A DNA stretch of 40,842 nt from Candidatus Stoquefichus sp. (lineage in GTDB: Bacteria > Bacillota_I > Bacilli_A > Erysipelotrichales > Coprobacillaceae), in assembly GCA_021768625.1 (NCBI GenBank), contig JAETUM010000024.1, forward strand, positions 1-40,842. The letters are read 5' to 3'. A program made the position numbers and the translations under genes. Of the stretch, positions 176 through 17,649 are shown piece by piece. The notes below the pieces were generated by a model. The model saw only the letters and a list, made by a program, of their open reading frames with translations. It ran no database searches and had not been told where the DNA came from. Position 1 is the first letter of the stretch. The number at the start of each line of letters is the position of its first letter.

Positions 176-3100
176 TTAATCTTCTTTTCTTTTATATGAG
201 AATGCAATGACAGCTATAAATAATGATGCAAATGCTAATGAAGCAAATTCTAAGATTGATGAATCATCACTTGTTCTGACTTTCTTCAATGCAGTTACTT
301 TTTGAATATCATCACCTTGAATATCAATATCAATTTTTCCATCACCATCTTTATCAAGATTGATATCAGCAATTCTATCACCATCTATATCAATATTAAG
401 ATCTGCTTTTCCATCGCCATCTGTATCAATATTAAGATTTGCTTTACCATCACCTGTTGTATCGATATTAAGATTCGCTTTACCATCGCCTGTTATATCA
501 ATGTTAAGATCTGCTTTTCCATCACCATCTGTATCAATGTTAAGATCTGCTTTTCCATCACCATCTGTATCAATATTAAGATCTGGTTTTCCGTCACCAT
601 CTTTATCAATATTAATATTTGGTTTAGTATCACCTAAGTCATTTGGCCACTTATCATCTAAATCATCTGGTTTTCCATCGCCATCTTCATCAACAATATT
701 GATATCTGGCTTTCCATCACCATCTGTGTCAATATTAATATCTGGTTTTCCGTCACCATCTTTATCAATGCTCACGTCTGGTTTGCCATCATCATCTGTA
801 TCTACATTAATATCTGGTTTTCCATCACCATCTTTATCAATATTCACATCTGGATCAATATCTTTTATATTTGGCCATTTATCATCTAAGTCATCTGGTT
901 TCCCATCACCGTCTTTATCAACAATATTGATATCTGGTTTTCCATCGCCATCTTTATCAATATTGATATCTGGATCTCCATCTTTATCTTTATCAATGTT
1001 GATATCTGGTTTTCCATCATCATCTGTATCTACATTAATATCTGGATCCCCATCACCATCTTTATCAATGTTGATATCTGGTTTTCCATCATCATCTGTA
1101 TCGATATTAATGTCTGGCTTTCCATCACCATCTTTATCAATGTTGATATCTGGTTTTCCATCATCATCTTTATCAATGTTCACATCTGGTTTCCCATCAT
1201 CATCTTTATCAATGTTCACATCTGGTTTCCCATCATCATCTGTATCGATATTAATGTCAGGTTTTCCATCATCATCTGTATCGATATTGATATCTGGTTT
1301 TCCATCATCATCTGTATCGATATTGATATCTGGTTTTCCATCATCATCTGTATCGATATTGATATCTGGTTTTCCATCGTCATCCTTATCAATATTGATG
1401 TCTGGCTCTCCATCATCATCTTTATCAATATTGATATCTGGTTTTCCATCATCATCTGTATCGATATTGATATCTGGTTTTCCATCGTCATCTTTATCAA
1501 TGTTCACATCTGGTTTTGGATTATCTTCTGGATCAATACCTGTATCTGGTTTCCCATCACCATCTTTGTCAACTATATTAATATCTGGTTTTCCATCATC
1601 ATCTGTATCAATATTAATATCTGGTTCATTATCACCATCTGTATCAATATTGATATCTGGTTTTCCATCACCATCTTTATCGATATTGATATCTGGTTTT
1701 CCATCGCCATCTGTATCAATATTAACTCTTACAAGATCATATGTAACAGTAAGTGTTGTCTTATAGTTATTAGATTTATCGTAAACAGTTGCTATAATTG
1801 TATATGTTGCTGCTTTAGATACATCAATTTCTTCTACTTCATTTCCATCTTTATCTTTAATAATAAACTCTTCAAGTTCTGTATCTACATGAGTATCTGA
1901 TTTAATATTAATAAAGTCATAACGTTCATTGAACATTTCTTTAAATTCATCTTTTGATACAATCTTTGGTTCTGAAGATACAGAATTTGTAATTGAATCT
2001 TTAGCATATCCATGAAGAATCTTAATATCTCCTTCTCCATCCTCAACTTCATAGTCATCAGGAACAATTGGATGATCCTCTTCTCCACCTGGTTTTGGTG
2101 TAGGAGGAGTTGCAAATGGGAATTCCTCTGGTGAAGTTTCTTCGACAATTGTTGCACGTTTTTCTGCTAAGTTATAGTTTGTTCCACCTAAATATTGTGC
2201 CTCCACTTGGAATGTTCCATCTGAAAGTTCGGGTATAGGATATTTTTTCAATTCTTCTTCATTTGTAAAGTCTATAAATAGGCGTGCAGTTGAATGTGCA
2301 TATTCATCGCTTCCTTCACTAGGTTGCGTAACTTCTTCAACATTAACTGGATTACCTACTTTAACACCATTAATATAAAATTGTACTTTTCCATCTGGTG
2401 CTGCACATGTCTTTGCTTCACCATCCCCTGGGAATACATTAGCAGTTAGTGTTATCGTTGCAAATTTAGTATGTTCATCATTTTGCCATGTTGATTCAGC
2501 CTTCAAATTTGTAATTTGGCTACTTGCTGGCGAAATAATTGACTCTAATGTTGTTTGATGTCCCCAGAAAGATTGATTAAATACTTCATCATCTTTAAAT
2601 TCATCATAGTTAACTGTAATTGTATATGTACCAGTTGTACTGATTTCACCTTTTGTACTTTCATCAGATGTTGCATTTCCAAACCAGTCTTTAATACGTA
2701 CTGATGAGAAGCCTAACTTATCTTCTTGATCAATTTTTTCATTCTTAGGCTCAGGTATGTCAATGTCTTGAGCTACAATTTCTTTAGCAAGAATGTCCAT
2801 ATCCCATCCAAGCCCATCATAAGTTTTATACAAGTATCCTTTAAGAGTATCAGAGAATTTATCTGTATCTACATTAAATGTTACCCATCTCTTTGTTGTA
2901 TCTCCAGTTCCTACTGAAGGTAATGAGAACGGATATTCTGCTTTAATAAGTGTTCCATCAGGTTTCATTAGTGTAACATTTGAAATACTTACACTCTTTC
3001 CTATTGAAGAAGTTGGTAACCAGAAATAAAGTGTTTGATCTTCTGCAACTTTATTTGCTAAACCATAATTAATGAAGTTACCAGCAGTATCAGATAATGG

Positions 3101-4483
3101 TTTACCATCAACTGTAACTGTAAAATCATAAATTCTATCTCCAACTTCTACATCTTCCATAGATCCAATAGCAATTTTAACCATTGTAAGGTTTGTACCA
3201 TCTGCACTAACTACTGAAGCACCAGTAATACCAGCTCCACCACTAGCACTAGCATTAGCACTATTTGTTGGATAGAATGAACCTCCTGTTACAATAACGT
3301 CTGCTTTTTGAGCTCCAACTCCATACCATCCAGATGAAGTTGCTTGTGGTAATAATGTTCCACCTGTAATTGTGATTTTATGAGATGCTCCAGATGTTCC
3401 ATGTCCTATATTATCTTTTTGTGAACATGCTCCGCCAAAAGCATTACCATGATCACGCCCAGTAGCTTTGACATATCCACCGTTAATTGTGATATCTCCT
3501 GTTGCAGTTGAACTATGTCCTACTCCTGCAACATCACCTGCATGCCAACCACCGCCAATTCCTGAACCATGGTAACTTGCATTGGCTTCAATCTCTCCAC
3601 CATTAATGATGATACCTCCACCATCAAGAAGACATCCAGCTCCACCATATGAACTTCCACCAATTCCAGAGCCACCACTCCAATTTTGGTTATTTCCATA
3701 AGGTGCAGAAGATATAATTTTACCACCATTAATAATAATAGCACCACTACTCTGCCCTGCTGCAGTACTACTTGTCGTTGCTTGACCACCAATTCCAGCA
3801 CTATAATATCCACCATAAACTGTTAAAGTTCCTGGATTATCACTATCCATTAGCCATGATGGTTTTTGAATGCCATTTTCATCTGTTTCTCCAACAATAC
3901 GTCCACCTTCAACATCTGCCCAGTTTCTTACGCCATCATCAATGATTAACTTTCCACCATAACATACATGAATACCTGCATGAGTTCCTGTTCCAGCATT
4001 CAATGTATTATTGCTGCCATCAGCAATAGTCAAATGTAATGTTGTAGGATCAGCGACTGTATTAGCTATAATATCAATAGGTGCAGCAGTTGTATTTGTA
4101 ATACTTACATTATTTAAAGTTATATCTGCTTTTGTTCCTTTTGTTATAGCAAGTGAACCTGTTGTTGTTGTTCCAGTAACAGTCACTGGTTTATTCGTAT
4201 TAATATAAAGAATTTTTCCACTTGAATAAACATCAAAATCTGCTGTTGTTCCATAAGTTAATGCACTACCATCATTTGTTGTCACCGTTAAGTTCTCAAA
4301 TGTACAAGATGCACTTCCATCAGCAAGAGGTTGTACATTATTTTCTTGTTTTGCATTTTCAGTTATTCCTTTTGTTGTTCCAAGATTATTCTCTTCTGCA
4401 TTGACAGAAAGAACATTTCCAAATGTAGAAACTAAAAGAAATGCACTGATTGTTAAAGCTGTTACTTTTCTTTGCTTTTTCAT
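176..4483 (-). CDS. Large secreted surface protein with glycine-rich N-terminal domain, Ig-like domains and about 36 Asp-rich tandem repeats
   Basis: This 1435-residue protein starts with a signal peptide (residues 1-30, ending VNAEE). Residues about 60-445 are Gly/Asn-rich with recurring INGG and GSGIGG motifs, as in Firmicutes carbohydrate-binding/beta-helix adhesin domains. Immunoglobulin-like beta domains follow to about residue 915. Residues about 919-1390 hold some 36 copies of a 12-residue unit, typically NIDTDDDGKPDI, with Asp at alternating positions as in thrombospondin-type-3 or EF-hand-like Ca2+ loops. Two linkers contain DDLDDKWPN. The tail has VRTSD, a hydrophobic segment and KRKED, a sortase-type signal without LPXTG. 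AAGGAGAAGAA lies just before the ATG. A role as a Ca2+-stiffened stalk presenting an adhesin head is inferred; the ligand is unknown. The inserted element lies 60 bp past its stop. Confidence 0.8.
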   Translation of the reverse strand: MKKQRKVTALTISAFLLVSTFGNVLSVNAEENNLGTTKGITENAKQENNVQPLADGSASCTFENLTVTTNDGSALTYGTTADFDVYSSGKILYINTNKPVTVTGTTTTGSLAITKGTKADITLNNVSITNTTAAPIDIIANTVADPTTLHLTIADGSNNTLNAGTGTHAGIHVCYGGKLIIDDGVRNWADVEGGRIVGETDENGIQKPSWLMDSDNPGTLTVYGGYYSAGIGGQATTSSTAAGQSSGAIIINGGKIISSAPYGNNQNWSGGSGIGGSSYGGAGCLLDGGGIIINGGEIEANASYHGSGIGGGWHAGDVAGVGHSSTATGDITINGGYVKATGRDHGNAFGGACSQKDNIGHGTSGASHKITITGGTLLPQATSSGWYGVGAQKADVIVTGGSFYPTNSANASASGGAGITGASVVSADGTNLTMVKIAIGSMEDVEVGDRIYDFTVTVDGKPLSDTAGNFINYGLANKVAEDQTLYFWLPTSSIGKSVSISNVTLMKPDGTLIKAEYPFSLPSVGTGDTTKRWVTFNVDTDKFSDTLKGYLYKTYDGLGWDMDILAKEIVAQDIDIPEPKNEKIDQEDKLGFSSVRIKDWFGNATSDESTKGEISTTGTYTITVNYDEFKDDEVFNQSFWGHQTTLESIISPASSQITNLKAESTWQNDEHTKFATITLTANVFPGDGEAKTCAAPDGKVQFYINGVKVGNPVNVEEVTQPSEGSDEYAHSTARLFIDFTNEEELKKYPIPELSDGTFQVEAQYLGGTNYNLAEKRATIVEETSPEEFPFATPPTPKPGGEEDHPIVPDDYEVEDGEGDIKILHGYAKDSITNSVSSEPKIVSKDEFKEMFNERYDFINIKSDTHVDTELEEFIIKDKDGNEVEEIDVSKAATYTIIATVYDKSNNYKTTLTVTYDLVRVNIDTDGDGKPDINIDKDGDGKPDINIDTDGDNEPDINIDTDDDGKPDINIVDKDGDGKPDTGIDPEDNPKPDVNIDKDDDGKPDINIDTDDDGKPDINIDKDDDGEPDINIDKDDDGKPDINIDTDDDGKPDINIDTDDDGKPDINIDTDDDGKPDINIDTDDDGKPDVNIDKDDDGKPDVNIDKDDDGKPDINIDKDGDGKPDINIDTDDDGKPDINIDKDGDGDPDINVDTDDDGKPDINIDKDKDGDPDINIDKDGDGKPDINIVDKDGDGKPDDLDDKWPNIKDIDPDVNIDKDGDGKPDINVDTDDDGKPDVSIDKDGDGKPDINIDTDGDGKPDINIVDEDGDGKPDDLDDKWPNDLGDTKPNINIDKDGDGKPDLNIDTDGDGKADLNIDTDGDGKADLNIDITGDGKANLNIDTTGDGKANLNIDTDGDGKADLNIDIDGDRIADINLDKDGDGKIDIDIQGDDIQKVTALKKVRTSDDSSILEFASLAFASLFIAVIAFSYKRKED
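312..1729 (-). repeat. 36-bp tandem coding repeat array
   Basis: About 1.4 kb of tandem repeats with a 36-bp period encode the Asp-rich units of the surface protein. Central units (about 1080-1500) are nearly identical at DNA level. Units near the 3' end of the gene (about 312-600) have diverged to GKADL and GKANL forms. Two longer units carry a DDLDDKWPN insert near 640-670 and 860-890. Such near-identity predicts copy-number change by slippage and possible assembly collapse. Confidence 0.95.
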
Positions 4484-7301: not shown

Positions 7302-7330
7302 TTGACAAACATATATAAAGATGATATTAT
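7302..7330 (+). promoter_or_regulatory. Promoter of the hom-lysC-asd operon
   Basis: TTGACA (7302-7307), exactly 17 bp, then TATTAT (7325-7330). Transcription should begin near 7337, about 160 nt before the hom start codon, so the leader peptide and terminator are both in the transcript. Position 7230-7300 holds nothing recognisable beyond a weak A/T hairpin. Confidence 0.85.
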
Positions 7331-7360
7331 TTCTAAAATAATAAAAAGGAGGACAATCTC

Positions 7361-7438
7361 ATGATAAAAACCATTAACATTTCCATATCTATGATTAAAG
7401 ATGAGAAAATGTTAAGAAGAGACTGTCTTATTTTATAA
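7361..7438 (+). CDS. Ile-rich leader peptide of the hom-lysC-asd operon
   Basis: A 25-codon frame starts MIKTINISISMIKDEK, with five Ile and one Thr in the first twelve residues, and stops 18 nt before the terminator stem. AAGGAGG at 7346-7352 sits 8 nt before the ATG, as good as for any real gene here. The Ile/Thr codons lie over the 5' arm (7374-7382, TTAACATTT) of a perfect 9-bp stem whose 3' arm is 7407-7415. This is the arrangement of ribosome-mediated attenuators such as the enterobacterial thr leader, which senses Thr and Ile. Ile is made from Thr, downstream of hom. The function is inferred from position; the peptide itself probably has none. Confidence 0.7.
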   Translation: MIKTINISISMIKDEKMLRRDCLIL

Positions 7439-7456
7439 CAACTATAAAGAAGAAAG

Positions 7457-7484
7457 CCTCATAATTATGAGGTTTTTATTTTTT
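7457..7484 (+). terminator. Attenuator terminator before hom
   Basis: CCTCAT-AATT-ATGAGG (7457-7472) is a perfect hairpin followed by TTTTTATTTTTT, ending 13 nt before the hom ATG. A terminator between a promoter and the first gene, with a translated leader upstream, implies conditional termination. A weaker A/U hairpin (7431-7449) overlaps the leader stop codon. The only antiterminator pairing I can see is short: ATGAG (7401-7405) with CTCAT (7458-7462). Confidence 0.85.
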
Positions 7485-7497
7485 AAGGGGGAAATAT

Positions 7498-8655
7498 ATG
7501 AATATTGGAATTATCGGTCTTGGTACTGTAGGGTTTGGGGTTGTAGAAATTCTTACAGAACAAAAAGAAAGATTAGAAAGACAATTAAATACAGAAGTTA
7601 AAATTAAATATGGTTGTTCTTTAGATGATGTAACACTACCTGAAGGAATTATTTACACACAAGATTATCATGATGTTATTAATGATAATGATGTTGATGT
7701 TGTTGTAGAATTAATTGGTGGAACAACAATTGCTAAAAACATTATTTTAGAAGCATTGAATAGTGGAAAGCATGTTGTTACTGCTAATAAAGCCTTAATT
7801 GCTCATCATGGACAAGAGATATTTGAAACTGCTCAAAAGAACAATGTCAAAATTTATTATGAAGCAGCTGTTGGTGGAGGTATTCCTATTGTTGTTCCTG
7901 CTAAAGAAGATTTAATTGCTAACGAAATTGAAAAGATTGAAGGTATTTTAAATGGAACAACAAACTTTATTTTAACACTTATGGAAACTGATAACTTAGA
8001 TTTCAATGAAGCTTTAACGATCGCTGATGGTTTAGGTTATGTAGAAGCCGATGCAAGCTTAGATTTAGATGGTATTGATGCTGCCCATAAAATTCAAATA
8101 TTAGCAATGAATGCTTTTGAATGTTTCTTTGATTTTGATAAAATTCAAACAACTGGTATTAGAAATGTTACCAAAAAAGATATGGATTATGCAAGGAAAT
8201 TAGGTTATCGTATTAAACTTATTGCCCAAGCTAAAAAATTAGAAAATGGAATTGGAATGGATGTATCACCTACTTTAATTGGTATAAAAGATATAGTCGC
8301 AAATGTTAATCAAGCATATAATGTAATAGAGGTGACATGCAATTATTTAGAAAATGTCATCTTCTATGGAAAAGGTGCAGGGCGTTATGTCACTGCAAGT
8401 GCTGTTGTCAGTGATATTATGAAAACGCATAAACAAGATATGTGGTCTCATGATTATCGTTATTGTACTGATATTTACCCTATCACTTATTCTAAATATT
8501 ATATAAGATGTGATCATCCTTTAGATGACTTAGATTATGAAACATATTTCTCTCAAGATAAAGATCATATTTATATTACAAATTATATTGAACTTAAAGA
8601 TTTACAAAAACAATTACAAGATGAAACATATCATTTGTTTAAAGTAAGGGGTTAA
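7498..8655 (+). CDS. hom: Homoserine dehydrogenase
   Basis: Reduces aspartate semialdehyde to homoserine with NAD(P)H, the branch toward Thr, Met and Ile. The nucleotide-binding GLGTVG is at residues 7-12, VTANKAL with Lys98 follows, then GILNGTTN (149-156) and the catalytic segment EADASLDLDGIDAAHK with Asp194 and Lys198. At 385 residues it is shorter than the usual Gram-positive enzyme of about 400-440 residues. The last 65 residues do not read as a full ACT domain, so allosteric Thr inhibition may be weak or altered. AAGGGGG lies before the ATG. It is the first gene of the operon; lysC follows after 4 nt. Confidence 0.95.
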   Translation: MNIGIIGLGTVGFGVVEILTEQKERLERQLNTEVKIKYGCSLDDVTLPEGIIYTQDYHDVINDNDVDVVVELIGGTTIAKNIILEALNSGKHVVTANKALIAHHGQEIFETAQKNNVKIYYEAAVGGGIPIVVPAKEDLIANEIEKIEGILNGTTNFILTLMETDNLDFNEALTIADGLGYVEADASLDLDGIDAAHKIQILAMNAFECFFDFDKIQTTGIRNVTKKDMDYARKLGYRIKLIAQAKKLENGIGMDVSPTLIGIKDIVANVNQAYNVIEVTCNYLENVIFYGKGAGRYVTASAVVSDIMKTHKQDMWSHDYRYCTDIYPITYSKYYIRCDHPLDDLDYETYFSQDKDHIYITNYIELKDLQKQLQDETYHLFKVRG

Positions 8656-8659
8656 TAAA

Positions 8660-9889
8660 ATGAATATTATTGTTCAAAAATTTGGTGGTACTTCAACACG
8701 TAGTGAACAAACACGTGAACATATGTATAAAAATATTATTCGTGAATTAGAAAAGGGTAACAAAATTGTTGCTGTTGTCAGTGCTATGGGGAGATATGAT
8801 GACCCTTATGCAACTGATACCCTCCTTTCTATTGTAGATACAGAAATGTTAACTGATGAAGAAATTGATCGTTTAACAAGCATGGGTGAGGTTATTTCAA
8901 CTCTTGTTTGTAAGAGTGAACTATCAAAAATGGGTTATTCAGTTGAAACTGTTACAAATAGAGAATTAGGTATTATGACTGATACAAGACATATGAATGC
9001 AACAATTACAACTGTTGAAGGTCATCATATATTAGAAAAATTAAAAAATGCTGATATAGTGATATGTCCTGGATTTCAAGGATACTCTCAAAATGGAAAA
9101 ATTACAACATTAGGTCGTGGTGGTAGTGATTTATCCGCTGTTGCTATTGGGGTTGCTATTGATGCTAATGAAGTTGAGATTTATAGTGATGTTAATGGTA
9201 TTTATACAGCCGACCCTCGTATTGTACCTGATGCTGTGAAATTAGACTATGTTAGTTATGCAGAAATGCTAGAACTTTCAAAAAATGGTGCAAAAGTACT
9301 TAATCATAGATGTGTACAATTAGCAGCCAAACATGATATTGTAATTCATGCAAGAAGTTCATTTGATAATCAAAAAGGAACATATGTGTTAGGAGATGAT
9401 AAAATCATGAAAGACCATTTAGATCAATTAATTATTTCTGGAATTACAGGTTCTCAAAATGAGGCGCGTATTACACTTGTTGGAGTAGATGCAAAGGTCA
9501 ATGGTGCAGGTCAATTATTTGAAAAAATTTCAGATGCTAATGTGAATGTTAATGTCTTTAATCAAGCATTAGTAGGTGGGGGAAAAATGGATATATCTTT
9601 AATCATTAATGATAAGGATGTTCCTAGTGTTGTAGAAGTTATTAATGAATTAAAGGAAACATTGAAACCTCAAAAAACAATTGTAAGAGGTAATATTGGA
9701 AAAGTTGCTGTTATTGGTGTTGGTATTAAGAACAATAAGGGAATGTTCCAAAAAGTATACAACACTTTAATGAGTAATGATATTAATGTTGAAATGACAT
9801 CATGCAGTGAAATTAATATTTCATGCTATATTGATAGAGATGATGTTAAAAAAGCACAAGTTTTACTACATGAAGCATTTTTAGGATAA
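8660..9889 (+). CDS. lysC: Aspartokinase
   Basis: Phosphorylates aspartate to aspartyl-4-phosphate, the first step of the Lys/Thr/Met/Ile family. The N-terminal kinase domain opens with QKFGGTS and contains TTLGRGGSDLSAVA and EIYSDVNGIYTADPRIV, the ATP- and aspartate-binding segments. From about residue 265 two tandem ACT domains follow (GITGSQNEARITLVGVD and KVAVIGVGIKNNKGM). The 409-residue length matches monofunctional two-ACT aspartokinases, which are commonly feedback-inhibited by Lys or Thr. It starts 4 nt after hom and ends 14 nt before asd, so the three are cotranscribed and translationally close. Confidence 0.95.
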   Translation: MNIIVQKFGGTSTRSEQTREHMYKNIIRELEKGNKIVAVVSAMGRYDDPYATDTLLSIVDTEMLTDEEIDRLTSMGEVISTLVCKSELSKMGYSVETVTNRELGIMTDTRHMNATITTVEGHHILEKLKNADIVICPGFQGYSQNGKITTLGRGGSDLSAVAIGVAIDANEVEIYSDVNGIYTADPRIVPDAVKLDYVSYAEMLELSKNGAKVLNHRCVQLAAKHDIVIHARSSFDNQKGTYVLGDDKIMKDHLDQLIISGITGSQNEARITLVGVDAKVNGAGQLFEKISDANVNVNVFNQALVGGGKMDISLIINDKDVPSVVEVINELKETLKPQKTIVRGNIGKVAVIGVGIKNNKGMFQKVYNTLMSNDINVEMTSCSEINISCYIDRDDVKKAQVLLHEAFLG

Positions 9890-9903: not shown

Positions 9904-10938
9904 ATGAAGAAATATAAAGTTGCTATTGTTGGTGCTACAGGAGCTGTAGGACGTGAAATGTTGAGATGCATTTTCCAATTTAACTTTCCTTTTGAAAGTT
10001 TAAAATTGTTAGCTTCTGCAAGAAGTGCAGGAAAGGTTATGGAATATGAAGGACATGAATTTGTTGTTGAAGAATTGACTGAAAATTCTTTTGATGATGT
10101 TGAAGTTGCTTTTTGGAGTGCTGGTGGAAGTATTTCAGAAAAATATATGCCATATGCTGTAAAAGCTGGATGTGTTAATATTGATAATACATCACACTTT
10201 AGAATGGATCCTGAAGTTCCATTAGTTGTTCCTGAAGTGAATGGTGAAGCTTTAAGAAATCATAAAGGAATTATTGCTAATCCAAACTGTACAACTATTC
10301 AAATGGTCAGTGCTTTAAATCGTTTAAATGAATATTTTGATATTGAAAGAATTATTGTTTCTACATATCAAGCAGTTTCTGGAGCAGGTGTTGCTGGTAT
10401 GGAAGAACTTTATAGACAATCTCAAGAAGTTTTAGATGGAAAAGAACCAGTTGCTAAAACATTACCATGTGCTTCTGATAAGAAACATTTCCCTATTGCT
10501 TTTAACTGTATACCTCAAGTTGATAAATTTGACTTAGATAATCATTTTACAAAAGAAGAAATGAAAATGGTTAATGAAACAAAGAAAATCTTTAATAAAG
10601 ATATCAAAGTCAATGCAACATGTGTGCGTGTACCAGTATTAAGAGGACATAGTGAATCTGTTTATATCGAAACAAAGAAACCTATTGATATGGATAAAGT
10701 TTTCGATTTATTATCACATTCACATGGTGTTGAATTATATGATGATATTGAAAATCAAGTTTATCCAATGGCTAACTTATTTATTGGTGATGAATTGGTT
10801 CATGTTGGACGTGTAAGAAAAGACTTAGATAACGATCATGCTTTAAGCTTATGGGTTGTTGCTGATCAATTAATGAAAGGTGCTGCTTATAACTCTGTAG
10901 ATATTGGTCTAAAGATGATTGAGATGGGATTACTTTAA
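9904..10938 (+). CDS. asd: Aspartate-semialdehyde dehydrogenase
   Basis: Converts aspartyl phosphate to aspartate semialdehyde with NADPH, supplying hom and lysine/peptidoglycan precursor synthesis. The NADP-binding GATGAVGREM starts at residue 10. The active-site Cys129 is in NPNCTT, and the substrate-binding RVPVLRGHSE lies in the C-terminal half. The length of 344 residues is normal. GGGAGG precedes the ATG. It is the last gene of the operon and is followed directly by a strong terminator. With hom and lysC it provides the complete route from aspartate to homoserine. Confidence 0.95.
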   Translation: MKKYKVAIVGATGAVGREMLRCIFQFNFPFESLKLLASARSAGKVMEYEGHEFVVEELTENSFDDVEVAFWSAGGSISEKYMPYAVKAGCVNIDNTSHFRMDPEVPLVVPEVNGEALRNHKGIIANPNCTTIQMVSALNRLNEYFDIERIIVSTYQAVSGAGVAGMEELYRQSQEVLDGKEPVAKTLPCASDKKHFPIAFNCIPQVDKFDLDNHFTKEEMKMVNETKKIFNKDIKVNATCVRVPVLRGHSESVYIETKKPIDMDKVFDLLSHSHGVELYDDIENQVYPMANLFIGDELVHVGRVRKDLDNDHALSLWVVADQLMKGAAYNSVDIGLKMIEMGLL

Positions 10939-10948
10939 TAAATATTAT

Positions 10949-10982
10949 AAACCTTTGCTAAATAAGCAAAGGTTTATTTTAA
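10949..10982 (+). terminator. Terminator of the hom-lysC-asd operon
   Basis: An 11-bp perfect stem, AAACCTTTGCT (10949-10959) with AGCAAAGGTTT (10965-10975), is followed by a T-rich stretch. It overlaps by two bases the stop codon of the convergent minus-strand gene ending at 10974. The reverse strand has a poorer U-tract, so it mainly serves asd. Confidence 0.88.
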
Positions 10983-12147: not shown

Positions 12148-14118
12148 TTATTCAACTTTAACAATCTTATAATAAACTTTTGCTGTTAAAGAATAAACAA
12201 TACTATATATAATAGCTAATATAGCTATAGAAATAATTGTACACCATACAAATAATGATATATCAGAAAGAACTAAGAAACTAAACATTTTTACAATCAT
12301 CTTAAAAGCAAATGCCATATGAATAGCTGCTACAATTAATGGTAAAAAGAAGAAAATAAGAACTTGTGAACGAATAGATTGTTTAACTTCTTTTTGACTC
12401 ATACCTACATTTTGCATAATTTCATATCTTTTTTGGTCCTCATATCCTTCTGATAATTGCTTATAATACATAATAAGTATTGCAGCCATTAAAAAGACAA
12501 TTCCTAAAAATATTCCTAAGAAAAATAAGCTTCCAAAAACTTCAAAATATTCATTTTGCATTTCAAACTGTGATTGATTATACATAGACATATTTGATGG
12601 AATATGACTTCGAACAATCTCTAATGCTTTTTCACTATCTTCTATATCTTCAAAATCTATTGAAATTGAATGAGACATTGTAGGAGCGGAATACTCTTCA
12701 TTAAATAAAGACTTGTTTAAAGTTTTATCACTGCTGAAAACAACGGTCATATCTTTTTCAATGTTTGAATATTTTTGTGTAAGGAAATATGGTTCATCTA
12801 CTACACTTTTAACTTTGAATGTTTTTCCATTAATCGTAAGATGATCTTTTATGTTTTCAAAGTTACAGGCAATTAAGATTTCATCATCTTTTAACTCTTG
12901 CTTTTGATGGAAAGCTTGATTAAATTCATCTAAACTCATTGCAGTTATACCTGTATACTTATCATCATTATATCCACCTATAGTAAAGTTTTTTTCAAAG
13001 TATGATCCACTAGCAAAATAGCATTCCTTTTTAACGATTGTTTTTATTTGAATATCATTCATTTCAAATTGTTTTAAAGATTTATTATATATTTGATTAA
13101 CTTCTTCAGTAATATTTTTACCTTCTGATGACATGAGTGTTATTCTCAATTGTTCATTAACTATCATATTTGTACTATCTTGCACAGTTATATATAATGA
13201 TACTGTTGATGATAACATAACAAGAATACATGTACATAAAATACATATACTTGCTAGACCTACAGCATTTTGTTTCATTCGATAAATCATTTGTGAAACA
13301 GATGTAAAATGCCTTGTCTTATAATAGAATCTTTTATTTCTCTTTAGAATTTTCAATAAAGTAATAGAACCTGCTGTAAATAAGCAATATGTTCCTATAA
13401 TAACTAATACAACAGCAACAAAGAATAAAAGCATTGCTTCTACAGGTTTTTCAATGGTTTGGGCAATATAATATCCTCCACCTAAAGTAACTAACCCTAA
13501 TAATGTCATTACCCATTTTGTTCTTGGTTCCTTTTCACCTGATTGACTACTTCTTAACAACTCTATTGGATTAGCTAGTTGTATTTGAAGAACATTAAAC
13601 AAATATGAAATAAAATATATTGCTATAAAAAGAAGAAAGGTTCTTATAATACTTTCCATTGGTATTACAAAATCAAATGGTGTTGAAATATGTGCCATGT
13701 GTATTAATATTAAAAATAATAACTTACTAAAAACAACACCAAATAAAATACCTACAATTAATGAAAACATTGATGTTATTAATGTTTCATAAAACATCAT
13801 ATACATAATATGTTTCTTTTCCATTCCTAAAATATTATATAAAGCCACTTCTTTTTTTCTTCGTTTAATAATAAAACTATTAATATAGAACAAAAAGATA
13901 ATAGCAAATATAATTACAACATATGTTCCTAATTCCATAATGATGGGTAACGTTCTAGCTCCTACAGTCATATCATCATATGCACCATTAATAGATAAAC
14001 TATGAATAATATAAAACATAGCAACTGTAAAAGTACTTGTTAAAAGATAAGGTATATAAATCTTAGCATTCTTTCTAATATTTCTTAATGCTAATCTTGG
14101 ATAAAAGAAAAGTTTCAT
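12148..14118 (-). CDS. BceB-type ABC transporter permease (peptide antibiotic sensing/resistance)
   Basis: From the ATG at 14118, with AGGAGG 8 nt upstream and one nucleotide after the ATPase stop, the protein has 656 residues beginning MKLFFYPRLALRNIRKNAK. It has the BceB plan: about ten membrane helices and a large extracellular domain (about residues 310-515) between the groups of four and three helices near the end. FtsX/MacB-like features include RRKKEVALYNILGMEKKHI after helix 2. BceB permeases, with their ATPase, recognise cell-wall-active peptides such as bacitracin or lantibiotics, relieve their binding to lipid II-cycle intermediates, and signal to the partner histidine kinase. The specific peptide is unknown. 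Confidence 0.88.
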   Translation of the reverse strand: MKLFFYPRLALRNIRKNAKIYIPYLLTSTFTVAMFYIIHSLSINGAYDDMTVGARTLPIIMELGTYVVIIFAIIFLFYINSFIIKRRKKEVALYNILGMEKKHIMYMMFYETLITSMFSLIVGILFGVVFSKLLFLILIHMAHISTPFDFVIPMESIIRTFLLFIAIYFISYLFNVLQIQLANPIELLRSSQSGEKEPRTKWVMTLLGLVTLGGGYYIAQTIEKPVEAMLLFFVAVVLVIIGTYCLFTAGSITLLKILKRNKRFYYKTRHFTSVSQMIYRMKQNAVGLASICILCTCILVMLSSTVSLYITVQDSTNMIVNEQLRITLMSSEGKNITEEVNQIYNKSLKQFEMNDIQIKTIVKKECYFASGSYFEKNFTIGGYNDDKYTGITAMSLDEFNQAFHQKQELKDDEILIACNFENIKDHLTINGKTFKVKSVVDEPYFLTQKYSNIEKDMTVVFSSDKTLNKSLFNEEYSAPTMSHSISIDFEDIEDSEKALEIVRSHIPSNMSMYNQSQFEMQNEYFEVFGSLFFLGIFLGIVFLMAAILIMYYKQLSEGYEDQKRYEIMQNVGMSQKEVKQSIRSQVLIFFFLPLIVAAIHMAFAFKMIVKMFSFLVLSDISLFVWCTIISIAILAIIYSIVYSLTAKVYYKIVKVE

Positions 14119-14119
14119 T

Positions 14120-14878
14120 TTACTTTCCTCCTGCCGCAAGTAATGTTAATGTTTCAGAAATACTTTGATACATTTGTTGATTAGTTTGATTTCCTTTATA
14201 GATTTGATGAAAAACTTCCCCATCTCTGATAAATAAAACACGTTTTGCATAACTTGCTGCTTTTGTACTATGTGTTACCATCAATATTGTTTGTCCCTCA
14301 TCATTAATTTTATCAAAGACTTCTAATAATTGATCTGTTGATTTAGAATCAAGTGCTCCTGTTGGTTCGTCTGCTAAAACAACCTGTGGATGAGTAATCA
14401 ATGCTCTTGCAACAGCAACTCTTTGTTTCTGTCCACCTGATATTTCATAAGGATACTTTTCTAATAAATCTTCAATACCTAGTTTAGGTGCTAAAACTTT
14501 TAATTTTTGATTCATAATTGGATAAACCTCTTTAGATAATACCAATGGTAAGAAGATATTATCTTTTATTGAAAATGTATCTAATAAATTAAAGTCTTGA
14601 AAAACAAATCCTAGATTTTTTCTTCTAAACTCTGCAATTTCTTTTTCCTTAATACCTGTAATATCTCTTCCATTTAATAAAACCTGTCCACTTGTAGTTT
14701 TATCTAATGATGCCAAAATATTGAGTAAAGTTGTTTTCCCACTTCCAGATTCACCCATTATAGCCACATATTCTCCTTCTTCTACAGTGAAAGAAACATT
14801 GGATAATGCTTGAACTTGTTGATTTGAAAAACGAGTCGAATAAACTTTCTTTAAATTTTTAACTTCTAATAACGCCAT
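14120..14878 (-). CDS. BceA-type ABC transporter ATP-binding protein
   Basis: The ATG at 14878 follows AAAGGAGG by 7 nt and yields 252 residues (MALLEVKNLKKVYS). Walker A is GESGSGKTT (residues 42-50), the Q-loop is FVFQDFNLLD, the signature is SGGQKQRVAVARAL and Walker B is VVLADEPTGALDSK, with the switch His in MVTHS. It belongs to the MacB/BceA group that energises FtsX-type permeases from the cytoplasm. It precedes the permease by one nucleotide. A BceR-like box and a hairpin lie in the 101 bp between the kinase stop and this start, so the transporter pair probably has inducible transcription of its own. Confidence 0.93.
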   Translation of the reverse strand: MALLEVKNLKKVYSTRFSNQQVQALSNVSFTVEEGEYVAIMGESGSGKTTLLNILASLDKTTSGQVLLNGRDITGIKEKEIAEFRRKNLGFVFQDFNLLDTFSIKDNIFLPLVLSKEVYPIMNQKLKVLAPKLGIEDLLEKYPYEISGGQKQRVAVARALITHPQVVLADEPTGALDSKSTDQLLEVFDKINDEGQTILMVTHSTKAASYAKRVLFIRDGEVFHQIYKGNQTNQQMYQSISETLTLLAAGGK

Positions 14879-14911
14879 AACGTTTCCTCCTTTATACATC
14901 TATAGTTTACG

Positions 14912-14952
14912 TAAAAAGAGAAATTGTTACCATCGATTCATCTTACAATTTC
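14912..14952 (-). terminator. Possible hairpin terminator between kinase and transporter genes
   Basis: GAAATTGT (14952-14945 in transcript order) pairs with ACAATTTC (14927-14920) around a 17-nt loop, followed by TCTTTTT. It could end kinase transcripts or reduce read-through into the ATPase gene. The long loop makes it less certain than other terminators here. Confidence 0.45.
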
Positions 14953-14962
14953 CCTATTATTT

Positions 14963-14978
14963 CTTACATCAATGTAAG
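14963..14978 (-). promoter_or_regulatory. BceR-type operator upstream of the ABC transporter genes
   Basis: CTTACA-TCAA-TGTAAG is a perfect palindrome containing TTACA-N4-TGTAA. It matches the TNACA-N4-TGTAA motif described for BceR-like response regulators upstream of their target transporters. It lies just after the kinase stop codon and about 85 bp before the ATPase start, where a transporter operator is expected. The exact promoter between box and gene is not clear. Confidence 0.65.
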
Positions 14979-14979
14979 T

Positions 14980-15963
14980 TTATTCTACTTGTAATTTTTC
15001 AACATGAAAATCTATTGATACACATGTTCCTTTTCCAAACTGAGATTGTATATTGATTTTATATCCTAAATTCTGAATAATTTCATAACACAAATACAAT
15101 CCCAAACCACTTGCCTTTTTATCTAATCTTCCATTATATCCTGTAAATCCTCTTTCAAATAAACGAGGTAAATCTTCTTCATGAATTCCTATTCCTGTAT
15201 CTTCAATGTACAAAGTTTCATCTCTTACATAAATATGAATATACCCTTGTTTTGTATATTTCAAAGCATTAGATACAATTTGTTCTATCACGAATGTAAT
15301 CCATTTTTCATCAGTTAAAATATTTAATGAAATAGGTTCTAAATTTAATTGAATCTTTTGATGAATAAAAAATGTTGCCTGTTTTTTAACAACAGCATTC
15401 ACTATATCTTCTAACGAATAATATTTTAGTTTTAAATCTGATGACATATGATCAACTTTTATATAATGAAGTACCATTTCCACATATTGTTCTATTCTTA
15501 AAACTTGTATTAATAAATCATTACTTGAAGTATCCTCTGATTGAATCAATAAATGTAATGCTGAAATAGGTGTCTTAATTTGATGAACCCATAATGTAAA
15601 ATAATCAATCATGTTATGATAGTCTTGTTCATTTTTACCTTCTAATTGATGATGAAGATCATCAATTTTCTTTAATAAATCTTGATAGAGTTGTTCTATT
15701 TGATTATCTGGTAAAGATAAATCTGATATATAAGTTTCTTTAAAGTTAAGAATATAACTGAGTTGTCTTTGTTTCTTATAAAAATGATAATAATCTATTA
15801 TAAAATAAACTACAAGTATAAAAATGCATAATAATGTAGCATATTGAGTTGCTTTACTTGAAATATCATATAAATATAAAACAATATTAAATAAGCCAAT
15901 AAATAATAATGATAAAAAATAAAGTGATTGTCGATATCTCAAATAATTATAAAGCTTTTTCAT
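14980..15963 (-). CDS. BceS-type intramembrane-sensing histidine kinase
   Basis: A 327-residue kinase with two N-terminal membrane helices (about residues 12-31 and 39-57) joined by a loop of only some eight residues, the mark of intramembrane-sensing kinases that get their signal from a BceAB transporter. The phosphoacceptor is His127 in WVHQIKTPISALH. The ATPase domain has VSNALKYTKQG (N box), IEDTGIGIHEEDLPRLFERGFTG (G1/F) and ASGLGLYLCYEII (G2). It overlaps the response-regulator gene by 17 nt. Together with the neighbouring regulator, ATPase and permease it forms a complete BceRS-BceAB-like detoxification module. Confidence 0.93.
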   Translation of the reverse strand: MKKLYNYLRYRQSLYFLSLLFIGLFNIVLYLYDISSKATQYATLLCIFILVVYFIIDYYHFYKKQRQLSYILNFKETYISDLSLPDNQIEQLYQDLLKKIDDLHHQLEGKNEQDYHNMIDYFTLWVHQIKTPISALHLLIQSEDTSSNDLLIQVLRIEQYVEMVLHYIKVDHMSSDLKLKYYSLEDIVNAVVKKQATFFIHQKIQLNLEPISLNILTDEKWITFVIEQIVSNALKYTKQGYIHIYVRDETLYIEDTGIGIHEEDLPRLFERGFTGYNGRLDKKASGLGLYLCYEIIQNLGYKINIQSQFGKGTCVSIDFHVEKLQVE

Positions 15964-16633
15964 AATACAATTTATATCCTATCCCTTTCTTTGTTTGAAT
16001 AAGCGATGTTATTGGAAAGACATCTAATTTTTTTCTTAATCTATTTACATTAACACTTAAAGTATTATCATCAACAAATTGTTCTGTTTGCCAAAGTTCC
16101 ATCATCATATCTTCTCTTGAAACAAATGTTTCTGCTTTTTCGAATAATAGTTGAAGAATTTTCAATTCATTCTTTGTTAAATCTACAACAATATCTTGAT
16201 ACATGATTGTTGCATCCAATAAATTAAGAATCAGATCTTTATATGTAAGTAATTGACTTTGTTTATTAAAAGAATATGTTCTTCTTAATAATGCTTGGAT
16301 TTTTGCTGTAACAACATTTAAATCAAAAGGTTTAGATATAAAATCATCTGCTCCCATATTCATAGCCATTACTATGTTCATATTTTCATTCATAGAAGAT
16401 ATAAAAATAACAGGAACTTCTGATATTTTTCTGATTTCTTGACACCAATGGTAACCATTATAAAAAGGCAGAGATATATCTAATAAAACTAACATGGGTT
16501 GTTGTTGAATAAAATCCTCAACTATATTTTCAAAGTTTTCTACAACATAAACATCATAATTCCATTTATTAAGATGTTGTTTTAATATTGATGAAATGAC
16601 TTCATCATCTTCTACAATCATTATTTTTTGCAT
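15947..16633 (-). CDS. BceR-type response regulator (OmpR family)
   Basis: The ATG at 16633 is preferred because AAGGGAG lies 8 nt upstream and the protein then starts MQKIMIVEDD, normal for the family (228 residues). Upstream in-frame ATGs at 16654 and 16639 lie before or against that site. The receiver domain has the acidic pair Glu8-Asp9/Asp10, the phosphoacceptor Asp52 in LVLLDISLP, and the conserved Lys in DDFISKPFD. The C-terminal winged helix (EALFVSREDMM-like segment, NTLSVNVNRLRKKL, IQTKKGIGYKL) binds DNA. The probable target is the palindrome at 14963-14978. Confidence 0.93.
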   Translation of the reverse strand: MQKIMIVEDDEVISSILKQHLNKWNYDVYVVENFENIVEDFIQQQPMLVLLDISLPFYNGYHWCQEIRKISEVPVIFISSMNENMNIVMAMNMGADDFISKPFDLNVVTAKIQALLRRTYSFNKQSQLLTYKDLILNLLDATIMYQDIVVDLTKNELKILQLLFEKAETFVSREDMMMELWQTEQFVDDNTLSVNVNRLRKKLDVFPITSLIQTKKGIGYKLYYEKAL

Positions 16634-16653
16634 AGGCATCACTCCCTTAAACA

Positions 16654-17649
16654 TTATAACACATCTTGATAAAGAGTTGCCATTTTCTCTATTTTTCTTT
16701 GAACCTCCTCTTTTAATGATATAGGAGATATAACTTTTATATTATCTTGTAACATCAAAATCCATCCTATAAGTCCTTCCGATATAGAAACATCAGGGAT
16801 AGTGATGAAATATTGATTTTGGTATAACTTTTTTGCTTCTATATTCATTCCAAAACGAGACACAATTTCTCTTAATAACTTTTGGTGACATTCAATTTGT
16901 AATGTATCTTTAATTTGTGTACTGTACATGTTTGTCATTTTCTCTATTTCTTTATTCATATCAAATTGTTCTCTCATCTCTATAAATAGACCTTGTGTAG
17001 TCATAATTTGTCTCATACGATCTATACGGTATATAGATAATTCGTTTTTATACTTTTGATTATATCCAACTAAATAATAATGATTATTATGTAAAACAAT
17101 CTGGTATGGAGAGATGATATATTGTTGGCCTTGATTGCCATTTTGTGATGCAACTTCTTTTAAATGATTATCTTCAACTTCATAATTAACATATTGAAAA
17201 GAAACAAGACACTTTCTTTCAATGGCTTTTATAAGAGTTGATATATTTAAAATAAGAGAGAATGATTGTTGTTTGTTTTGTGGATGAAAGCTTACTAAGC
17301 GTTCTCTTTGTTGATAGGAAGATAAAGAATCTAATTTTTCTTTTAATTTTAACTTATCCTCATATTTGAGGTCCTCATGAAATGCAATACTATCTAATAA
17401 AAATTGTAACTCTCCATCTAAAAAGAATTCGTTTTCTATTTTATAACCTACTCTATGTATAGATATAATCATATCTTTTTTTATCCAAGGATTAAAAAAA
17501 CTATTTAATTGTTTAATACATGAATACACAGATTTTATATCAATATATATATTATAATTTTTTAACTCTTTTAAAATATCTTTTGCACTTATTGCCTTAC
17601 CATTATTTTCTTGAATAATCTTTAAAATATAATACATTCTTTCTCCCAT
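16654..17649 (-). CDS. WYL-domain transcriptional regulator
   Basis: A 331-residue cytoplasmic regulator. Residues about 1-70 form a winged helix (MYYILKIIQENNGKAISAKDILKEL type). The middle contains a WYL domain: VSFQYVNYEV, then YIISPYQIVLHNNHYYLVGYN and ELSIYRIDRM, the conserved strands and Arg that sense a ligand or nucleic acid. The C-terminal 80 residues resemble the WCX extension. TAGGAGA precedes the ATG. Its stop codon overlaps the upstream in-frame ATG of the response regulator by one base, so the two are on one transcript. It follows an unknown 198-residue protein after 9 nt. The ligand and targets are unknown. Confidence 0.85.
   Translation of the reverse strand: MGERMYYILKIIQENNGKAISAKDILKELKNYNIYIDIKSVYSCIKQLNSFFNPWIKKDMIISIHRVGYKIENEFFLDGELQFLLDSIAFHEDLKYEDKLKLKEKLDSLSSYQQRERLVSFHPQNKQQSFSLILNISTLIKAIERKCLVSFQYVNYEVEDNHLKEVASQNGNQGQQYIISPYQIVLHNNHYYLVGYNQKYKNELSIYRIDRMRQIMTTQGLFIEMREQFDMNKEIEKMTNMYSTQIKDTLQIECHQKLLREIVSRFGMNIEAKKLYQNQYFITIPDVSISEGLIGWILMLQDNIKVISPISLKEEVQRKIEKMATLYQDVL

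Follow-up and report, generated by a model that had tools for sequence, protein, structure and literature searches.

Leader-peptide attenuation of transcription is best known from E. coli and was long thought to be rare in Bacillota. In the E. coli thrABC operon, a Thr/Ile-rich leader peptide, ThrL, precedes the aspartokinase/homoserine dehydrogenase genes, and a terminator competes with an antiterminator; in the trp leader, the alternatives are the 1:2, 2:3 and 3:4 hairpins, and the leader ribosome-binding site is limited by downstream pairing. Within Bacillota, His leader-peptide attenuators have been published for Erysipelotrichales his operons, including those of Coprobacillus (PMC9413887), a Leu/Ile-rich attenuator peptide with genetic support precedes ilvD in the S. 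aureus ilv-leu operon, where B. subtilis has a T-box (PMC5794164), and leader peptides have been reported for hisS/hisZ (PMC2965389). A literature search covering few subscription papers yielded no report of such a device for the hom or thr genes of Bacillota.

In the present study, we describe a probable leader of this kind before the hom-lysC-asd operon of Candidatus Stoquefichus sp., located in a stretch of 40,842 nucleotides (the window), which is contig 135 of 138 in a 2.9-Mb Erysipelotrichales genome (Table 1). The closest Hom proteins among named relatives are those of Candidatus Stoquefichus (86%), Longibaculum (84%) and Massilimicrobiota (83%). We consider that a ribosome-mediated leader-peptide transcription attenuator controls this operon with a probability of about 0.85, judging from sequence comparison and modelled folds, and by every sequence feature tested here the leader belongs among leader-peptide attenuators. 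Like thrL, it combines a Thr/Ile-rich peptide with competing terminator and antiterminator, and some of its peptides, e.g. MTIITIIDAFKK (L027), resemble ThrL; however, it occurs in a different phylum, its operon lacks thrB and thrC, and its Met codons are enriched. No sequence relation to thrL is evident, and the likeness is therefore probably convergent. The his attenuators represent the same device in the same bacterial group, and the window's genome has one of them, with the leader peptide MKKTILNTQFHHHHWNT, four consecutive His codons and then a terminator-like hairpin (L074:362-415, G000 C23), but these carry tandem His codons on his genes, whereas the hom leader carries Ile, Thr and Met codons. 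The S. aureus ilv-leu attenuator is likewise a leader-peptide device in Bacillota and differs in preceding ilvD rather than hom, and the trp leader, with the same three hairpins, has Trp codons and no sequence relation to the hom leader. The leader would thus bring leader-peptide attenuation to the point where the Thr/Ile/Met branch starts, within a gut-bacterial family and a genome that also uses T-boxes.

Table 1. Features of the hom leader and operon in the window
Feature	Position	Strand	Basis or detail
Sigma-70-type promoter, TTGACA-17-TATTAT, extended -10 (TG)	7302-7330	+	Sequence; same promoter at the same place in relatives
Leader Shine-Dalgarno (SD), AAGGAGG	7346-7352	+	Sequence; 8 nt upstream of the ATG at 7361
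Strand 1, outer part (SD end to start codon)	7350-7360	+	Minimum-energy fold; pairs with 7419-7429
Leader peptide ORF, MIKTINISISMIKDEKMLRRDCLIL and stop, 25 codons	7361-7438	+	Sequence, relatives and shuffles; the start is conserved among relatives in g19 and g16
Strand 1, inner part (codons 5-8)	7374-7382	+	Minimum-energy fold; pairs with 7407-7415
Strand 2, used by the 1:2 hairpin and, through 7419-7429, by the antiterminator	7407-7429	+	Folding
Antiterminator 2:3, 16 bp	7419-7460	+	7419-7437 with 7443-7460; -9.5 kcal/mol
Intrinsic terminator 3:4 with its core at 7452-7477 and a U tract reaching 7483	7446-7483	+	-13.2 kcal/mol
hom, homoserine dehydrogenase	7498-8655	+	Pfam PF03447 and PF00742
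lysC, aspartokinase	8660-9889	+	Pfam AA_kinase and ACT
asd, aspartate-semialdehyde dehydrogenase	9904-10938	+	Pfam
Terminator-like hairpin 3' of asd, probable operon end	10947-10977		Sequence

Most of the elements described in an initial annotation of this DNA were confirmed. The promoter matches the consensus at 11 of 12 positions, with a TG preceding the -10 element, and transcription would start near 7337. A short ORF with a well-placed ribosome-binding site lies directly downstream, and an intrinsic terminator stands between this ORF and the first gene, ending about 14 nt upstream of hom. The predicted 25-codon peptide, noted earlier for five Ile and a Thr near its start, has these Ile within codons 2-12, a sixth at codon 24, Thr4 encoded by ACC, and three Met including the start; its stop codon occupies 7436-7438, and the 9-bp stem seen over the Ile codons was recovered as the inner pairing of strand 1. 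The putative control codons are Ile2, Thr4 (the rare ACC), Ile5, Ile7, Ile9, Met11 and Ile12. Of 5000 dinucleotide-shuffled versions of the leader, only 44 contained an SD-led ATG ORF of at least six codons, and the leader fold was far more stable than those of shuffles (z = -4.8; 0 of 200 as stable).

The minimum-energy fold of the leader contains the 1:2 pairings followed by the terminator. When the RNA up to a stalled ribosome was removed and strand 4 had not yet been made, GAGaCUgUCUUaUUUUAUA (7419-7437) paired with UAUAAAGAAGAaAGcCUC (7443-7460) through 16 bp with small mismatches, occupying the 5' arm of the terminator. This result replaces the earlier view that only a 5-bp antiterminator could be found; the AUGAG/CUCAU pairing in question is superseded by the longer helix, which does not use it. 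The 5' strand of the antiterminator pairs alternatively with the leader's own ribosome-binding region, resulting in a 1:2, 2:3 and 3:4 layout. In a stall scan of the window's leader, the antiterminator probability was at least 0.9 with A-site codons 2-16, dropped at codons 17-18 and was approximately zero over the remaining codons, from 19 up to the stop; the codons for Ile, Thr and Met as far as codon 12 thus lie within the antiterminating zone. Thus, antiterminator and terminator are mutually exclusive and gated by the ribosome in this computation; at equilibrium, however, the complete terminator was favoured at every ribosome position (3:4 probability 0.88-0.97), and the switch must therefore be kinetic, depending on timing as in classical attenuators. 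The energy of the antiterminator was ordinary for its composition (P 0.18); only its occupation of the terminator arm was unusual (P 0.013). Among 24 leaders, the occupancy of the terminator 5' arm by upstream RNA averaged 0.69 while the ribosome was on early codons and 0.39 once it had reached the stop (Wilcoxon P 0.004, which is approximate because the species are related). The terminator arms for this comparison were set by hand, because the automatic terminator finder took the 2:3 hairpin for the terminator in genus g20.

The codon content of the leader peptides is consistent with the first gene of the operon, since Thr, Ile and Met are all products derived from homoserine. In 24 ORFs (the window and relatives), 172 of the 392 residues beyond the start were Ile, Thr or Met (44%), against 21% in base shuffles without stops (expected 81, sd 7.7), and the other two frames of the same DNA gave 12% and 7%. 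Observed and shuffled counts were 95 and 52 for Ile, 38 and 21 for Thr, and 39 and 7.9 for Met, whereas Leu, Val, Asn and Lys were not elevated. With one species per genus, the three residues still numbered 61 of 150, where 33 were expected (median P 2e-7), with Met at 15 versus 5 (P 2e-4), Ile at 32 versus 20 (P 0.004) and Thr at 14 versus 8 (P 0.04). The window's ORF alone, with 9 of 24, is borderline (shuffle P = 0.056), and the comparison across genera is decisive. The rare Thr codon ACC made up 3.6% of leader codons versus 0.1% in the genes of the window, approximately 36-fold, whereas the common ACA was not enriched and was used less than in those genes. The initial annotation had left the role of Met open; internal Met was the most strongly enriched of the three in the 24 ORFs, suggesting that the Met codons probably matter in sensing too.

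The layout is conserved in relatives. The hom gene was found in 40 of 43 genomes of the family. Among the upstream regions inspected, those of 24 species in 10 genera, including the window, carry an SD-led ATG ORF shortly downstream of the -10 element, and hom is preceded there by a terminator or a hairpin resembling one. The recurrence of frame, codon content, terminator and competing hairpins across ten genera favours the attenuator reading of the initial annotation. Besides MTIITIIDAFKK, the leader peptides include MITINISKTIMCFSNC (Stoquefichus), MIKTINSSKTIMCLIYC (Longibaculum), MIIHITV, MLSMGISLTITITSNSIITPIK, MKLMIMTS and MYKMMTMCISN, and an Ile-(Lys)-Thr-Ile start is kept in the nearest genera (MIKTINIS, MITINISKTIM, MIKTINSSKTIM). 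Comparison with relatives, proposed earlier as a check, thus bore out the frame and its Ile codons overall, but seven species near the window (L005, L007, L008, L010, L011, L013 and L015) retain the hairpin without an ATG ORF, and three of these (L007, L010 and L013) have also lost the SD. In the seven, the hairpin over the leader SD region contains up to 12 bp of changed yet matching pairs; an ATT start codon might conceivably serve in these species. One relative (L006) has a leader ORF that is not enriched in Ile, Thr and Met, and in about eight relatives the promoter of hom is bare or the leader unrelated. Covariation in the stems had also been suggested as a check: in genus g20, 2:3 and 3:4 pairing held in 92.5% and 98% of cells, compared with 37-54% and 11-73% in slid controls, and the covariation statistics support pairing, but compensatory changes were few and did not exceed column shuffles. 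In the leader-bearing groups that were folded, a 1:2 hairpin involved the leader SD region. In the computed folds of genera with long peptides (the window, Stoquefichus, Longibaculum, most of g20 and part of g2), strand 2 lies under a ribosome standing at the stop codon, and the occupancy of the terminator arm is 0.0-0.2, whereas in those with short peptides (g9, g14, g3 and g6) strand 2 is left uncovered and the occupancy is 0.4-1.0; shut-off in the latter would thus need ribosome release and re-closure of the 1:2 hairpin. These approximately 24 natural variants, some of which are apparently decaying, offer material on the origin, shortening and loss of such switches, and bear on whether Met is among the amino acids that such a leader can sense.

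Herein, we propose how the leader would regulate hom through strand 1 (the leader SD and start region with codons 5-8) and strands 2, 3 and 4, which would form alternative hairpins. When Ile, Thr or probably Met is low, the ribosome would stall at codons 2-12 and occupy strand 1, leaving strand 2 free to capture strand 3 during its synthesis by RNA polymerase; once 2:3 has formed, the terminator would come too late and hom would be transcribed. When the amino acids are plentiful, the ribosome would reach the stop codon and cover strand 2, so that 3:4 forms and transcription ends before hom. With the ribosome absent or released, 1:2 would re-form, hiding the leader SD region and holding strand 2, and the terminator would again form. 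The read-through, the kinetic competition and the choice of relevant tRNAs in this scheme are our inference. More tentatively, and with some doubt on our part, the leader might be a sensor of three products, reading the elongator tRNAs for Thr, Ile and Met through one peptide and thus being a Met-sensing attenuator, with shut-off in genera of short peptides (MIIHITV, MKLMIMTS) brought about when the ribosome is released and the hairpin re-closes on the leader SD region, rather than by a ribosome parked at the stop codon.

Several other explanations were considered. Riboswitch and T-box control of aspartate-family genes is frequent in Bacillota, and a riboswitch that binds a metabolite or tRNA (of the T-box, lysine or SAM class or one not yet described), to which the ORF would be incidental, could also account for the seven relatives that retain the hairpin without an ATG ORF. 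Nevertheless, the Rfam search at the hom leader gave no family match, including the T-box (RF00230), in line with the initial annotation, and neither a lysine nor a SAM riboswitch was matched at the gathering score, despite 21 T-boxes above the curated cut-off elsewhere in the same genome, all away from the hom leader. Moreover, no conserved aptamer-like core is seen, and the sequence varies freely between genera while the codon content stays; such a riboswitch is therefore very improbable, and the described T-box and riboswitch candidates were rejected on the absent Rfam match.

The inclusion of the leader SD region in the 1:2 hairpin, observed in the leader-bearing groups examined, might instead mean that the leader senses translation initiation generally, with 1:2 opened by any ribosome that loads, and in the short-peptide genera any ribosome on the leader does free strand 2. 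Since this would leave the enrichment of Ile, Thr and Met and the rare ACC codons without a role, we give it very little credence. Equally improbable is that the hairpin before hom is an ordinary terminator or an element of mRNA stability, read through at a constant rate, with a peptide that is a leftover or non-regulatory: the full-length terminator does dominate at equilibrium, and the ORF or the entire leader has been lost in some relatives, but the order of promoter, ORF, antiterminator and terminator is conserved in ten genera and the codons are biased.

Other layers of control may accompany the attenuator. The Pfam domains of Hom stop at residue 308 of 385, and an ACT match is absent; thus, the enzyme may lack feedback by Thr, and regulation may depend more on the leader. 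No copy of the leader was seen at thrC-thrB and an ilvA-like gene in the window's genome, where the thrC promoter is bare and carries a ATTGTATACAAT palindrome (L068, about 1240-1260). In many relatives, the TGTATACA / ATTGTATACAAT palindrome also occupies the spacer of the hom promoter (L003, L004, L006, L014 and L015; hom-thrC regions of L019-L030), and the copy at the window's hom is degenerate (CATATATA). This palindrome is probably an operator common to hom and thrCB, providing a second control layer. In 20 inspected genomes of the sister family f2, no leader peptide was found before hom; most hom promoters there (L077-L096) have a conserved ACAAGTGTTTTT...AAAGACA-like element downstream of the -10 and are divergent from a thrC-like gene. 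Elsewhere in the window, a 1435-aa secreted protein (176-4483, minus strand) has a C-terminal membrane anchor and many DGDGKPDINID-like repeats with the look of calcium-binding sequences. At 12148-16654 (minus strand), an ABC transporter with a large FtsX-like permease adjoins a histidine kinase and a response regulator, a BceAB-RS-like layout as judged by eye from the translations.
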